Shown here: positions 28,297 to 63,084 of the stretch, piece by piece
Layout: the number at the start of each line of letters is the position of its first letter
How positions within the stretch are numbered: the stretch's first letter is position 1
DNA from: Thermoanaerobaculum sp.
GTDB lineage: Bacteria > Acidobacteriota > Thermoanaerobaculia > Multivoradales > UBA5704
Direction of reading: 5' to 3'
NCBI GenBank assembly: GCA_021154885.1
Contig: JAJKHS010000041.1
Location: forward strand, 1-64,000
Length of the DNA stretch: 64,000 nucleotides
Made by a program: the position numbers and the translations under genes
The notes under the pieces: generated by a model
Database searches by the model: none
Told to the model about the DNA's origin: nothing
Seen by the model: only the letters and a program-made list of their open reading frames with translations

Positions 28297-28458
28297 TCAG
28301 CAGGGGCAGACCGAGTGCCTCGTGGGGCAGAGCATGGAAGTGCAGCGGGAGTCGGGGCCGGTGAATCCCCCCTCCACCGGCTGCAGCTCGTGCGTGCTGA
28401 GGCGGCGGAGCGTTTCACGATGGATCGTCAGCTTCGACAGCTTGAACGTTTTTTTCAT
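28297..28458 (-). CDS. RiPP precursor peptide (lanthipeptide-like leader), orphan
   Basis: The 53-residue peptide has a ribosome site AGGGAG upstream of ATG 28458. The leader (residues 1-30) reads KLSKLTIHRETLRRLSTHEL and ends in VEGG, a double-glycine-like end. The core is rich in Cys, Ser and Thr (GPDSRCTSMLC, HSVCPC; four cysteines). The same L-x-(H)-R-E-T-(L/V) motif is in the precursors at 61200-61397 and 61409-61600. Class I lanthipeptide precursors of Acidobacteriota and Bacteroidota carry such leaders. No LanB, LanC or LanM gene is nearby, but an ABC exporter pair of NisT type lies on the same strand 1.1 kb downstream. Confidence 0.75.
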   Translation of the reverse strand: MKKTFKLSKLTIHRETLRRLSTHELQPVEGGFTGPDSRCTSMLCPTRHSVCPC

Positions 28459-58746: not shown

Positions 58747-59271
58747 TTACTTCAGCCCCTTGAGGACCTGCCGCACCCGGTTGGGGGTGAGGTTCTCGTG
58801 GTATTCGTCGTCCACCATCATCATCGGCGCCGTGTCGCACGAGCCCAGGCACTCGAAGTGGACGTAGGAGCAGCGGCCGTCGGGCGTCACTTCGTCCTCA
58901 CCGACGCCGAGCTCGCGGTGCAGGACCTCGAGGATCTCCTCGGCCCCCCGGAGCTGGCACGAGAGGTTGTTGCAGACGCGGATGCGGTGGCGCCCCACGG
59001 GCTTCTGATGGAAGAGGTCGTAGAAGGTGACGACGCCGTAGACCCGCGCGACCGGCAGGTCCAGCGCCTCGGCCACGGCCGTGATGGCTTCATCGGGGAG
59101 CCAGCCGCCCCACTGGCGCTGGGCGATATGCAGCGCCGGCAGCAGCACGGCCTCGGTCGTGGGATAGCGCTCGCGCAGGCCATCGATCTCGGCCCGCGAC
59201 GCCGCGGAGAGACCGCCGCCCCGGGTCTGGGGACCGGGAGGTTTCACCGATGCCGGTTCGTGCACGCTCAT
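58747..59271 (-). CDS. nuoE: NADH-quinone oxidoreductase subunit E
   Basis: The 174-residue subunit has a helical N-terminal part (LRERYPTTEAVLLPALHIAQ, GWLPDEAITAVAEALDLP) and a thioredoxin-like 2Fe-2S domain. The ligands are in VCNNLSCQLRG and ECLGSCDTAPMMMVDD. Residues 1-25 are a Pro/Gly-rich extension. It overlaps nuoA by 4 bp (ATGA). Confidence 0.95.
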   Translation of the reverse strand: MSVHEPASVKPPGPQTRGGGLSAASRAEIDGLRERYPTTEAVLLPALHIAQRQWGGWLPDEAITAVAEALDLPVARVYGVVTFYDLFHQKPVGRHRIRVCNNLSCQLRGAEEILEVLHRELGVGEDEVTPDGRCSYVHFECLGSCDTAPMMMVDDEYHENLTPNRVRQVLKGLK

Positions 59272-59681
59272 GACAGCCTCGGCGTCTGGACGGGGCGGCG
59301 CTCGCGCGCGGGCAGCGACAGGTCGAGGCCGCCCTTGATCCAGACGTAGGCGAAGCCGACCAGGATGAGGAAGATGAAGACCATGACGGCCGCGAAGAGC
59401 TGCCACCCGCCGTCGCGCAGGATCAGCGCCCAGGGATAGAGGAAGGCGGCCTCGAGGTCGAAGACGATGAAGTCGATGGCGACCAGGAAGAAGGCGATGG
59501 AGATCCGCTTGTGCGACACGTCGAGCAGGGGCATGCCGGACTCGACGGTGGTGCCCTTGAGCAGGCCGCCGTGCTGGTGCCCTGCGATCTTCCCGAGGAT
59601 CCACGACAGGCTGAGGATGACGATCCCCATCGTGATCGCAATCCCCATGGCCAGCAGGACCGGGTAGTACTGCTCCGGCAA
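59268..59681 (-). CDS. nuoA: NADH-quinone oxidoreductase subunit A
   Basis: The 137-residue, three-helix subunit carries the family stretches VESGMPLLDVSHKRISIAFF and AIDFIVFDLEAAFLYPWALI, the latter with the conserved acidic residues. The usual Cys of the loop (ExG-x-P) is replaced by Met-Pro. It is the first gene of the operon here. nuoB, nuoC and nuoD, which normally follow it, are absent. Confidence 0.95.
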   Translation of the reverse strand: MPEQYYPVLLAMGIAITMGIVILSLSWILGKIAGHQHGGLLKGTTVESGMPLLDVSHKRISIAFFLVAIDFIVFDLEAAFLYPWALILRDGGWQLFAAVMVFIFLILVGFAYVWIKGGLDLSLPARERRPVQTPRLS

Positions 59682-59778: not shown

Positions 59779-59810
59779 GCGGGGGCGGGAGGGAAGACCC
59801 CCGCCCAAGA

Positions 59811-60136
59811 CCCTCATCACCCCGGCCCTCTTCTCCCGCCCCCTCCCACCCCCCTCACCGGGAGAAGAGGGAGGAAGACCGGCATCGACGTTTGACGAAG
59901 GCGGGGACCGCGGGCCGTCTCCGGGTCGGAGGCAACGCCAGCGCCACCCACGACCCAGGGCGGCGCGAGGGGTGGAGGTCGGGTGGCGTCTGCGGCTCCG
60001 GCGGGTCCGCATCACCCCGGCCTCTTCGCCCAGCCTCCCCAATGTCCGCGGGGCCGCCGGGAAAGGAGGGAGAAAGCCCCTCATCACTCCGACCCTCTTC
60101 TCCCATCGCCCTCCCCCAATCGGGAGAAGAGGGAGA
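59811..60136. repeat. three palindromic repeats of the REP-like family
   Basis: Copies at 59811-59875, 60010-60073 and 60076-60136 share CCCTCATCACYCCGRCCCTC and CTTCTCCC arms with GGGAGAAGAGGGAG. They match the pair at 37224-37407. They fill most of the 549-bp gap between nuoA and the peptide island. Confidence 0.75.
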
Positions 60137-60146
60137 ACGTCTCTCT

Positions 60147-60230: not shown

Positions 60231-60422
60231 ATGAAGACGCGAATCAAGCTGCTGCTGGCCGGCGCTGTCCTAGGAGTATTGACGCTGAGTACCCAGCCCG
60301 CAGAGGCCTTCTGTCGTGTTCAGCCCACCATCGTGGACAGTGAAGCAGAGTGCGAATCGCTCTGCTATTCAGGCGGTTGTTATGGCTACCGATACTCGGA
60401 CGGTGGCTGCTTCTGTAACTAG
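60231..60422 (+). CDS. secreted cysteine-rich peptide
   Basis: The 63-residue peptide has AGGAGG (60219-60224) upstream and a signal peptide (residues 1-26, ending QPAEA). The mature 37 residues contain six cysteines spaced C-x12-C-x3-C-x4-C-x9-C-x-C. The C-x3-C followed by C-x-C recalls cysteine-stabilised alpha/beta peptides, but the C3-C4 gap of four is shorter than in known defensins, so the fold is open. It is the first of five Cys-rich small genes in 1.4 kb. Confidence 0.7.
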   Translation: MKTRIKLLLAGAVLGVLTLSTQPAEAFCRVQPTIVDSEAECESLCYSGGCYGYRYSDGGCFCN

Positions 60423-60472
60423 CTCTGGGAAACACGAAGGATAGGATAGACTGCGCGAGCCGGGGGGAGGAG

Positions 60473-60492
60473 CCTCCGGTAACTACCGGAGA
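60473..60492 (+). promoter_or_regulatory. hairpin covering the ribosome site of a RiPP precursor gene
   Basis: CTCCGGTA (60474-60481) pairs perfectly with TACCGGAG (60484-60491). The 3' arm contains GGAG of the probable ribosome site GGAGAG (60488-60493), five bases before ATG 60499, so folding would limit translation. Confidence 0.45.
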
Positions 60493-60498
60493 GACCTC

Positions 60499-60711
60499 AT
60501 GAAGAAGCGGACGAAAAAGCTGGTGCTGTCCAAGGAGACGTTACGGAGCCTTCAGTTGGTGCTCGTGAGCGGTGGGACCAGCGGCGTCGATTGCGGCGGT
60601 ACCGGTTATTGCGGTACTGGTATCGGGGATACCTGCACTTGTGAGGGGATGGGGTCCTGTGGGACGTGTCCTTGGGAGCTGGGACCAACTGCCGTAAGCC
60701 GCCGTTGCTGA
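60499..60711 (+). CDS. RiPP precursor peptide, class I lanthipeptide-like leader
   Basis: The 70-residue peptide has the leader KKLVLSKETLRSLQLVLV ending in SGG. The K-x-L-x-L-x-K-E-T-L pattern is that of class I lanthipeptide precursors in Bacteroidota and Acidobacteriota. The core is Gly, Thr and Cys rich (DCGGTGYCGTGIGDTCTC, GSCGTCPWE) with seven cysteines and many Thr/Ser. No modification enzyme gene is in the window, so it is either an orphan or modified in trans. Confidence 0.75.
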   Translation: MKKRTKKLVLSKETLRSLQLVLVSGGTSGVDCGGTGYCGTGIGDTCTCEGMGSCGTCPWELGPTAVSRRC

Positions 60712-60774
60712 AGATTACAACAGGCGGCGGGTGACGAAGCCTGACCCGGAGGTGGCCTCGACCGAGCCCTCGCG

Positions 60775-61035
60775 TCAGTCCAGGAGGCAGCAAGCGGTAA
60801 GGACGCGGGTGTAGGGGGTGGGCTCGCAATTTTCCGTGCAGCACTCCGAGCACACTAGTTGGGTTCTGTCGGCGTCAGAGTAATAGAAAATACAGCGTCC
60901 CTGAGTATAGCCTTCAGGGCATCGCAACGCATGGGCGGGACGAGCCGGAGCGAGGAGGGCGAGCGCCGTAAAGAGTGTGGTGACGAGGAGCAGGAGAAGG
61001 GTTTTGCGACGCGAGACGGGAAAGCGGCGAGGCAT
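60775..61035 (-). CDS. secreted cysteine-rich peptide
   Basis: The 86-residue peptide starts at ATG 61035 with a long signal peptide (RRKTLLLLLVTTLFTALALL, cleavage near residue 36). The mature 50 residues hold eight cysteines (LRCPEGYTQGRC, LVCSECCTENCEP, TACCLL). It converges on the plus-strand precursor at 60499. No family is recognised. A longer upstream reading frame is rejected because it passes through the neighbouring peptide genes. Confidence 0.65.
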   Translation of the reverse strand: MPRRFPVSRRKTLLLLLVTTLFTALALLAPARPAHALRCPEGYTQGRCIFYYSDADRTQLVCSECCTENCEPTPYTRVLTACCLLD

Positions 61036-61199
61036 GGTCGGACTCCTTTTTGGGTGTCGGCCCTGGCGTTGAGTCTTGGATTGTAGATCATTCTTCAATG
61101 ATTGTCCAACAGGAAGCAAGTACTGGGGGCCCCGGTAAGGGTGACAGCAGGCGCGCTGCCATCTGCTGCCGCCCGGGGTTTGAGGATCGGCAAACCTTC

Positions 61200-61397
61200 T
61201 CAGCAGAGGCAGGAGAGCTCGTTGTTGCCCGTCGGGGGCGGCGGGCAGCTCTTGGAGGCGTTGCAGGTGCTGCAGCACTGCGCGGCGCAGGAGTACTGGG
61301 TGACAATGGCGCCGGCCACCTCTCCGAGGTGGGAGTCCTCGAGCCGGCGGACGGTCTCGCGGTGAAGGTTCAGATGCCTGGCGATCTTCTTGCGCAT
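61200..61397 (-). CDS. RiPP precursor peptide, HRETV leader
   Basis: The 65-residue peptide has the leader RHLNLHRETVRRLEDSHLGE ending near VAGA. The core has nine cysteines (YSCAAQCCSTCNASKSC, LSCLC) and the block SCPPPPTG. It is a paralogue of the peptide at 61409-61600, which shares HRET, LED and SCPPPTG. GAGGAGACC precedes the ATG as ribosome site. Confidence 0.75.
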   Translation of the reverse strand: MRKKIARHLNLHRETVRRLEDSHLGEVAGAIVTQYSCAAQCCSTCNASKSCPPPPTGNNELSCLC

Positions 61398-61408
61398 CGT
61401 GGGTCTCC

Positions 61409-61600
61409 TCAGAAACAGACGTTCGTGCCGGTGGGACAGAACAGCGAGCAGGGTCCGGTCGGCGGGGGACAACTGTCGGACCGGGCGCAACAGGTGCCTC
61501 CGACGGTGGCGGCACCTGCTACGTTGAGCCGTTCGTCCTCCAGCTTGTGGAGGGTCTCACGGTGAAGGTCCAGACGCTTCGACATCCTCTTCTTCTTCAT
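61409..61600 (-). CDS. RiPP precursor peptide, HRETL leader
   Basis: The 63-residue peptide has the leader KRLDLHRETLHKLEDERLNV and AGAATVGG before a core with six cysteines (TCCARSDSCPPPTGPC, LFCPTGTNVC). AAAGGAACG precedes the ATG. It lies 11 bp upstream of its paralogue on the same strand, so both are probably on one transcript. Confidence 0.75.
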   Translation of the reverse strand: MKKKRMSKRLDLHRETLHKLEDERLNVAGAATVGGTCCARSDSCPPPTGPCSLFCPTGTNVCF

Positions 61601-61656: not shown

Positions 61657-61812
61657 GCCCCGGCAGCTCCGTCCGAGCACGGAGGAGCGCCGTGCGAGCA
61701 GGGGGACGTCCGTATCTGCCGGGGAAAGACTCCCGTCCGAGCAGGGAGAGGCCTATACCTGCTCGGGTGAGTTCCCCTACGAGTGGGGACGGCCGTACCG
61801 AGCTCGCACTGG
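61657..61812. repeat. short degenerate array with 19-22-bp units
   Basis: Segments beginning GAGCAGGG or TGC(C/T)(C/G)GGG recur about every 21 bp (for example GAGCAGGGGGACGTCCGTATC and GAGCAGGGAGAGGCCTATACC), with internal dyads. It lies immediately before a DUF4143 ATPase gene, as the 44.7-45.2 kb array lies immediately after one. The unit sequences differ. Confidence 0.5.
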
Positions 61813-61841
61813 ATGTACAGGAGTAACCTGCTGAATTTGCG

Positions 61842-61874
61842 AGATTTGACCGATCTAAAATCAAATCTTAGAAT
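61842..61874 (+). promoter_or_regulatory. leaderless promoter overlaid by an inverted repeat
   Basis: TTGACC (61846-61851) and TAGAAT (61869-61874) are 17 bp apart, and ATG 61882 follows 7 bp after the -10. AGATTTGA (61842-61849) and TCAAATCT (61861-61868) are perfect inverted arms with centres 19 bp apart, lying between and over the two boxes. Confidence 0.6.
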
Positions 61875-61881
61875 GGGCAGG

Positions 61882-63084
61882 ATGTACGTCCATCGTCTCT
61901 TGGCCCCGACCCTCGGCGACGCGCTGTCGCTCTTCCCCTCCGTCCTGGTGACGGGACCCCGCCAGTCGGGCAAGACGACCTTCCTCCTGGAGGAGTTTGG
62001 CCAGGGTGCCCGGTATGTGACCCTGGACGATCCTCTCCAGCGGGACTTCGCGCAATCCGATCCCAACGGATTTCTCGACGGCCTCGGGGAGGGCCGGGTC
62101 ATTCTGGACGAGATCCAGTATGCGCCCGAGCTGTTGCCGTATCTCAAGGTCCGCATCGACCGGGACCGCCAGCGCAATGGTCATTGGCTGCTCACGGGCT
62201 CGCAGCAGTTCCACCTCATGGCCAACGTCAGCGAGTCGCTGGCGGGCCGGATCGCCCTCCTCGATCTGCTGCCTTTCAGCGTTCTTGAGACGACCGGCGC
62301 CCGCAGCCCCGACCTGCGGGCCGTCATCTGGAACGGCTCCTATCCTGACCCGGCGCTCCATCCCGAGAAGCGCGACCTCTGGATCGCCTCCTATATCCAG
62401 ACCTACGTGGAGCGGGACGTTCGGCAGCTCTTGCGGGTTCAGGACCTGCGCACGTTCGAGACCGTCCTGGCCTTGAGCGCGGCGCGCCATGGACAGGAGC
62501 TCGCCGTGGCGGACATCGCCCGGGCGGCGGGAGTCTCGCAGCCGACCGTGAAGACCTGGGTCAACCTGCTGGAGGCCGCGTACATCCTCCGCCTGCTGCC
62601 GCCGTATTTCGAAAACTTCGGCAAGCGGATCATCAAGTCCCCAAAAATCTACTTCCTGGATTCCGGCCTGGTCTGCGCCCTTACGCGTCAGCCCGGGGCC
62701 GAGGCCGCTCTGGCCGGAGCCATGGGGGGCGCCCTGTTCGAGGGCCTCGTGGTGAGTGAGGCGTACAAGGTCTTTGCTCTCAAGGGGGAGCGGCCCGATC
62801 TCTATTTCTGGCGCTCGCACGACGGTCTCGAGGTCGATCTGGTGGCTCGCCTCCCGCGGGGGCTCGTGCCGATCGAGATCAAGCTCACGGCCACACCCAC
62901 GCTCAAGCACACCGAGACCCTGGGGCGCTTCCGGGAGCTGGCGAGGGGGAGCGCCGTGGCTCAGGGCATCCTGGTCTGCAACGTGGAGCAACAACTCGCT
63001 CTGCCTGGAGGCCATCTGGCCCTCCCTTGGCGCGAGCTCCCGGAATGGTTGAGCCGGGAGTTGGACGGGTTGAACGGCACGTAA
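61882..63084 (+). CDS. AAA+ ATPase with DUF4143 C-terminal domain
   Basis: The 400-residue protein begins MYVHRLLAPTLGDALSLFPS. It has Walker A VTGPRQSGKTTFLLEEF, Walker B GRVILDEIQYAPELLPYL, WLLTGSQQFHLM and ESLAGRIALLDLLPF. A winged helix (AVADIARAAGVSQPTVKTWV) and the DUF4143 domain (FENFGKRIIKSPKIYFLDSG, DGLEVDLVARL, PIEIKLTATP) follow. ATG 61882 is chosen because an in-frame ATG at 61873 overlaps the -10 box. Biological role is unknown. Confidence 0.9.
   Translation: MYVHRLLAPTLGDALSLFPSVLVTGPRQSGKTTFLLEEFGQGARYVTLDDPLQRDFAQSDPNGFLDGLGEGRVILDEIQYAPELLPYLKVRIDRDRQRNGHWLLTGSQQFHLMANVSESLAGRIALLDLLPFSVLETTGARSPDLRAVIWNGSYPDPALHPEKRDLWIASYIQTYVERDVRQLLRVQDLRTFETVLALSAARHGQELAVADIARAAGVSQPTVKTWVNLLEAAYILRLLPPYFENFGKRIIKSPKIYFLDSGLVCALTRQPGAEAALAGAMGGALFEGLVVSEAYKVFALKGERPDLYFWRSHDGLEVDLVARLPRGLVPIEIKLTATPTLKHTETLGRFRELARGSAVAQGILVCNVEQQLALPGGHLALPWRELPEWLSRELDGLNGT

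Follow-up and report, generated by a model that had tools for sequence, protein, structure and literature searches.

Precursors with class I lanthipeptide leaders in a cysteine-rich gene island of Thermoanaerobaculum sp. belong to a set scattered over the genome

Five small cysteine-rich genes are crowded into 1.4 kb of a contig from Thermoanaerobaculum sp., a soil acidobacterium of the class Thermoanaerobaculia and probably of the family UBA5704, and the question they raise is whether they constitute one locus with a common purpose or are members of separate gene classes. From the letters alone, an earlier reading, here called the original prediction, had proposed that two genes with Sec signals and three with RiPP-type leaders, on both strands, form a peptide arsenal or signalling locus whose enzymes act in trans. 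All five ORFs are found where they had been placed in the window, by which is meant the whole analysed stretch of 64,000 nucleotides, and all have ATG starts and Shine-Dalgarno (SD)-like sites (Table 1). The cysteine counts of the Sec-type products, six and eight, were also read correctly, the latter applying to the mature part.

The clustering itself is not due to chance, because five of the seven cysteine-rich small ORFs with ATG and SD site in the window fall inside the 1.4 kb, while the same count gives two ORFs for the reversed window and 0–3 for shuffled windows. The genes, named here by their first positions, form two co-directional groups, 60231 with 60499 on one strand and 60775, 61200 and 61409 on the other. 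The last two are tandem paralogues, as had been noticed, with a spacing of 11 bp and SCPPP(P)TG in common. On either side of the island, the nuoA and AAA_14/DUF4143 ATPase genes are not RiPP enzyme genes, and the 157 kb contig of the island has zero matches to LanB or LanC, in keeping with the earlier observation that modification enzymes are not adjacent. The REP-like repeats beside the island match a copy at another locus of the genome at 97% over 77 bp.

Table 1. Features of the island and of the rest of the window.
Feature	Position	Strand	Basis
Sec-type prepeptide, 63 aa, 6 Cys	60231..60422	+	ORF with ATG and SD site; signal by simple rule
Class I lanthipeptide precursor, leader MKKRTKKLVLSKETLRSL..VSGG, core with 7 Cys and 10 Ser/Thr	60499..60711	+	Leader profiles
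Sec-type prepeptide, 86 aa, mature part with 8 Cys, without known family	60775..61035	-	ORF; Pfam/NCBIfam scan
Class I lanthipeptide precursor, leader MRKKIARHLNLHRETVRRLEDSHLGEVAGA, core with 7 Cys	61200..61397	-	Leader profiles
Class I lanthipeptide precursor, leader MKKKRMSKRLDLHRETLHKLEDERLNVAGA, core with 6 Cys	61409..61600	-	Tandem paralogue of 61200 gene
nuoA	59271-59681	-	Island neighbour
AAA_14/DUF4143 ATPase	ORF 61783-63084	+	Island neighbour
L1a-family precursor outside island, core FTGPDSRCTSMLCPTRHSVCPC	28297..28458	-	NF038153, 22.6 bits, above cut-off
REP-like palindromic intergenic repeats (CTCTTCTCCC...GGGAGAAGAG) beside island	59798..60140	.	Common to other genome loci

We consider first the identity of the three leader-type genes. 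Against the NCBIfam family NF038153 (lant_leader_L1a, class I lanthipeptide), which has a cut-off of 22 bits, the precursors at 61409, 61200 and 60499 score 21.2, 20.0 and 15.6 bits. The one at 61409 attains 22 bits when it is scanned with its in-frame neighbours, and 22 sequences of the same genome set attain the cut-off. With a profile built from 32 leaders of the genome itself, among them those at 61200 and 61409 but not the one at 60499, the E values are 4.7e-13 for 61200, 8.2e-10 for 61409 and 1.1e-5 for 60499. The assignment of these leaders to a RiPP type is supported, while the motif given for them, K/H-x-E-T-L/V, is better written as [SHN][KR]ET[LV].

The same profile yields 52 matches in the genome at E < 0.004, followed by a gap to 0.9, so that further precursors of the kind that the original prediction had suggested looking for do exist. 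They are scattered over 43 loci on 32 contigs, and a LanB gene is found within 5 kb of a single one (contig C75, position 2276), the next nearest precursor being 9.7 kb away from one. With few exceptions, they combine a good ORF with an SD site and a core rich in Cys, Thr and Ser, and the leader usually ends in GG or GA. The cores average 33 aa with 5.3 Cys and 7.6 Ser/Thr, and 51 of the 52 contain at least two Cys together with at least two Ser/Thr. Those of the island have 6–7 Cys and 8–10 Ser/Thr each, that is, both of the residue types from which thioether rings are made. Within the genome, the leaders are on average 48% identical to each other, and the cores 28%, compared to 25% for shuffled cores. 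Among the inter-locus matches listed for the 52 leader loci no shared mobile element was identified that could be their vehicle, many of the matches being REP-like or other repeats; REP-like half-sites occur at 8.2 per 100 kb near precursors vs 4.2, uncorrected for the non-coding share.

The genome contains three LanBs, on contigs C75, C1 and, as a split N/C pair, C83. In addition, there are 16 LanC-like proteins, for most of which the open frame is as long as that of a synthetase, and C39 peptidase domains are encoded on contigs C81, C83 and C45. The search of the genome for RiPP enzymes, whose absence would have counted against the original prediction, is thus positive, and since LanB and LanC are encoded elsewhere than on the contig of the island, enzymes for its precursors would act in trans, as had been suggested.

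A presumed cognate LanB and LanC for the precursors are present on contig C75, where a precursor, a LanC with its CYG and CHG motifs in place and a full-length LanB are found inside 6 kb. Orthologues of this LanB occur in two congeneric genomes, with identities of 75% in G001 and 74–77% in G002, the LanB of contig C1 being just 31% identical. The two congeners share their match coordinates with Thermoanaerobaculia GZL_HYHR_2_bin.39 and Acidobacteria gp7 AA5. Because it is conserved in the genus and has a precursor beside it, the C75 LanB is the one of the three to which we assign the set, and judging from the sequences the C75 LanB/LanC pair is the best candidate enzyme for the scattered precursors.

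Some details of these enzyme loci can be added. A gene for a HepT-like protein is located between LanC and LanB of contig C75 (L090, 3914–4582). On contig C1 (L088, 2079–2918), the LanC and LanB genes are directly preceded by a gene whose 279-aa product has a long tail of Cys/Thr repeats and might be a precursor of unusual size. The C75-type LanB of G002 (L415, contig C655) reads in two overlapping frames and may be broken or mis-assembled; intact relatives exist.

We find it likely that the three island genes are members of a class I lanthipeptide set of about 52, served in trans by the C75 LanB, and that the two Sec-type genes belong to a separate class. In the mechanism that we infer, the shared leader of the scattered precursors would be bound in trans by the full-length C75 LanB, which would dehydrate the Ser and Thr residues of the core, after which LanC would close thioether rings with the core Cys residues. 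The leader would then be cut off after GG or GA and the product exported; by analogy, the cut is probably made by an ABC transporter with a C39 peptidase whose gene lies elsewhere. The two Sec-type peptides would be exported by Sec and closed by disulfides.

Another option is that the leader-type precursors are modified not by the C75 pair but by another LanC-bearing synthetase (LanM or LanKC) or by the split LanB of contig C83. Most of the 16 LanC-like matches have the size for the former, and the C83 locus has its own C39 ABC transporter. However, the family NF038153 is defined as class I, and within the order the leader co-occurs with full-length class I LanB. Namely, nine of 59 genomes have a LanB of E < 1e-100, and all nine carry L1a-leader precursors (1 to 52), while the 50 genomes without a strong LanB have one single weak leader match in total. 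Both congeners possess a C75-type LanB, and they contain 32 and 44 such precursors; the same-family genome, with the match coordinates of Holophagales UBA5704, contains 10 and other members of the order 0–7. Moreover, in named genomes of Acidobacteriota, Myxococcota (covered by single genomes), Bacillota, Actinomycetota and Bacteroidota, many C75-type LanBs have leader-bearing precursors at most 8 kb away. With this distribution, we judge the involvement of a different enzyme to be improbable.

The number of precursors is usually small outside the genus. Most of 36 named genomes with a C75-type LanB hold 0–5 L1a precursors, and in a draw of 297 genomes from the phylum, for which NF038153 was used although it is less sensitive than the own-genome leader profile, any match was obtained in 12 and the cut-off was passed by six. 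The scattered class I repertoire is nevertheless not confined to this genus, since the Phycisphaerae MAG Bin_19R (L148/G347), a planctomycete with a C75-type LanB, has 21 L1a-leader genes distributed over at least nine contigs.

We now come to the two Sec-type peptides, which are not RiPPs and for which Pfam and NCBIfam yield nothing. The mature 60231 peptide, FCRVQPTIVDSEAECESLCYSGGCYGYRYSDGGCFCN (with the signal cut inferred), has the Cys spacing C-12-C-3-C-4-C-9-C-1-C. This fits the expression CX(2,18)CX(3)CX(2,12)CX(4,17)CXC of the bacterial cis-defensins (PMC11561630), and the signal that goes with it is present as a signal-like N-terminus by a simple rule. AlphaFold2, run on the single sequence, gives a helix (12–21) and two strands (27–30 and 33–36) with a pLDDT of 84. 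The structure matches are all CS-alpha-beta-type peptides, but they are weak (Foldseek E 3.5 or worse, VIA Z 4.1 or less). The bacterial cis-defensins are characterised by parallel disulfides, C2-C5 and C3-C6. The peptide is thus predicted to be defensin-like, with an alpha-beta-beta arrangement. Its net charge is −3, in contrast to typical antibacterial defensins, which are not anionic. A homologue search in 20 relatives returned the peptide itself and chance matches, and phmmer against the PDB one chance-level match. It can be mentioned that one bacterial cis-defensin had no antimicrobial activity (PMC11561630). For the 60775 peptide, weak look-alikes were all that the search returned, on contig C4 of its own genome and in a congener, and its AlphaFold2 model (pLDDT 62) is of too low quality to be used for matching folds. 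A sigma70-like promoter match precedes its gene (61108–61080, reverse strand).

Genes of the Sec type are not peculiar to the island. In a crude scan of 1.46 Mb, the 391 kb around precursors contained 15 Sec-type Cys-rich ORFs and the 1.07 Mb elsewhere 14, which extrapolates to roughly a hundred or more such peptides per genome. On contig C143 (L324, 5834–7051), four Sec-type Cys-rich paralogues (CPICTTYADGSQCCVSCICD...) stand in tandem, a long way from the nearest lanthipeptide precursor.

The possibility has to be considered that the island is a dedicated locus, in which the Sec-type and leader-type peptides evolved for joint production and action. The arrangement in two co-directional groups would suit it, and so would the density of Sec-type ORFs, which is 2.6 to 3 times higher near precursors than elsewhere. 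With the island left out, however, the enrichment is 2.6-fold by length (p 0.012) and about 2-fold per non-coding base (p 0.03–0.06), where the p values are only indicative since several test variants were run. The co-location is real but modest and is partly explained by a shared preference for gene-poor stretches. A direct coupling of the two gene types was tested and found to be weak. Furthermore, arrays of Sec-type genes exist without precursors, as on contig C143, and the same peptide families were not found paired again at other loci. In the congener G001, the slot between nuoA and a polysaccharide deacetylase gene holds only a Uma2-family gene, with both the island and the AAA_14/DUF4143 ATPase gene absent. 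On this comparison of sequences, the island is to be seen as a lineage-specific insertion in a variable chromosomal slot. We give the dedicated locus a small chance. As to the single arsenal or signalling locus of the original prediction, it is not supported in that form, because the Sec-type peptides are common genome-wide and weakly enriched near precursors, and the precursors of the island are three of some 52 scattered ones.

The cores of the scattered precursors have changed almost completely between species. A recognisable counterpart is found for one of the 52 in one congener and for two in the other. The few shared cores can be nearly identical, as is the case for AGRLTDFVTCYVTCLRTCQGCTV (contig C48, position 33282), which has near copies in G002 (contigs C906 and C1081). 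That the precursors are merely decaying, functionless copies of a mobile leader gene, as this lack of core conservation and the about twice as dense REP-like repeats nearby could indicate, is very unlikely, since the frames are intact with SD sites present, a few cores recur almost unchanged in another species, and Cys and Ser+Thr stay at about 16% and 23% of the cores in all three genomes, a composition that would be lost in decaying genes.

If the precursors form a class I set modified in trans, one may ask what the products could do. The mean net charge of the cores is −0.6, most being neutral or acidic and only four of the 52 having +2 or more, so that they are less likely to be simple cationic lantibiotics acting on membranes. 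Candidate roles are recognition, signalling and the inhibition of enzymes. A class II lanthipeptide that inhibits proteases, ThaA, has been reported from a coral member of Thermoanaerobaculia in the UBA5704 family (PMC13083261), and by analogy this precedent makes inhibition a lead only.

One can speculate further that this soil acidobacterial genus has two parallel, fast-turnover repertoires of exported peptides, namely dozens of thioether peptides modified in trans by one class I LanB/LanC pair and perhaps a hundred Sec-exported disulfide peptides, defensin-like ones included. We regard this picture as tentative and somewhat doubtful. If it is true, the Sec set would be replaced between species to a similar degree as the thioether set, where turnover is almost total; molecules of recognition or conflict are expected to behave in this way.

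It remains to compare these genes with known systems. The 60231 peptide resembles the bacterial cis-defensins in its Cys expression, in an N-terminus that looks like a signal and in the alpha-beta-beta fold predicted for it, and it differs from them in its negative charge, in the failure to find a sequence relative and in an N-terminal tail of one residue. Of the 74 bacterial cis-defensins that have been listed, one is from Acidobacteria, and this one is of class IV with a long N-terminal tail (PMC11561630).

The leader-type genes share their leader and LanB family with the known class I lanthipeptides with L1a precursors (from Myxococcota, Paenibacillus, Acidobacteriota, Actinomycetota and others). 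However, in those systems usually one to four precursors adjoin the LanB, whereas here there are 52, nearly all of them distant. A broad lanthipeptide survey looked within seven genes of the LanC domain (PMC7268733), and scattered precursors would therefore be missed by it; cluster-based mining overlooks most of the present ones. In the open-licence literature we found no report of a scattered class I precursor repertoire.

The one-enzyme scattered design is documented for class II lanthipeptides of cyanobacteria, the prochlorosins and synechococsins, with 29 precursors in Prochlorococcus MIT9313 and 79 in Synechococcus MIT9509 (PMC10783134, PMC12328550, PMC10027976). The present genus would add another lineage for studying the purpose of such repertoires. 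With 30–50 hypervariable substrates per genome, a class I version would be a natural test of a glutamyl-tRNA-dependent dehydratase and a separate cyclase on unrelated cores, and potentially a tolerant enzyme pair for peptide engineering.

As in the ProcA-ProcM and SyncA-SyncM systems, scattered precursors far outnumber the synthetase, and a conserved leader with a Gly-Gly end is followed by a hypervariable, Cys-containing core. One tolerant enzyme acts in trans on the prochlorosins, and here we infer the same from the genes. The differences lie in the machinery. The prochlorosins have a class II LanM with a CCG zinc motif and a Nif11-type leader; in the island precursors, the Pfam and NCBIfam scans gave no match to Nif11 and the leader is L1a instead, and the leader-paired C75 enzymes are a LanB and a LanC, the latter with CHG, rather than a ProcM-like CCG LanM. 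The scattered set would thus work in the manner of the prochlorosin system without belonging to it, as a genus-wide class I analogue.
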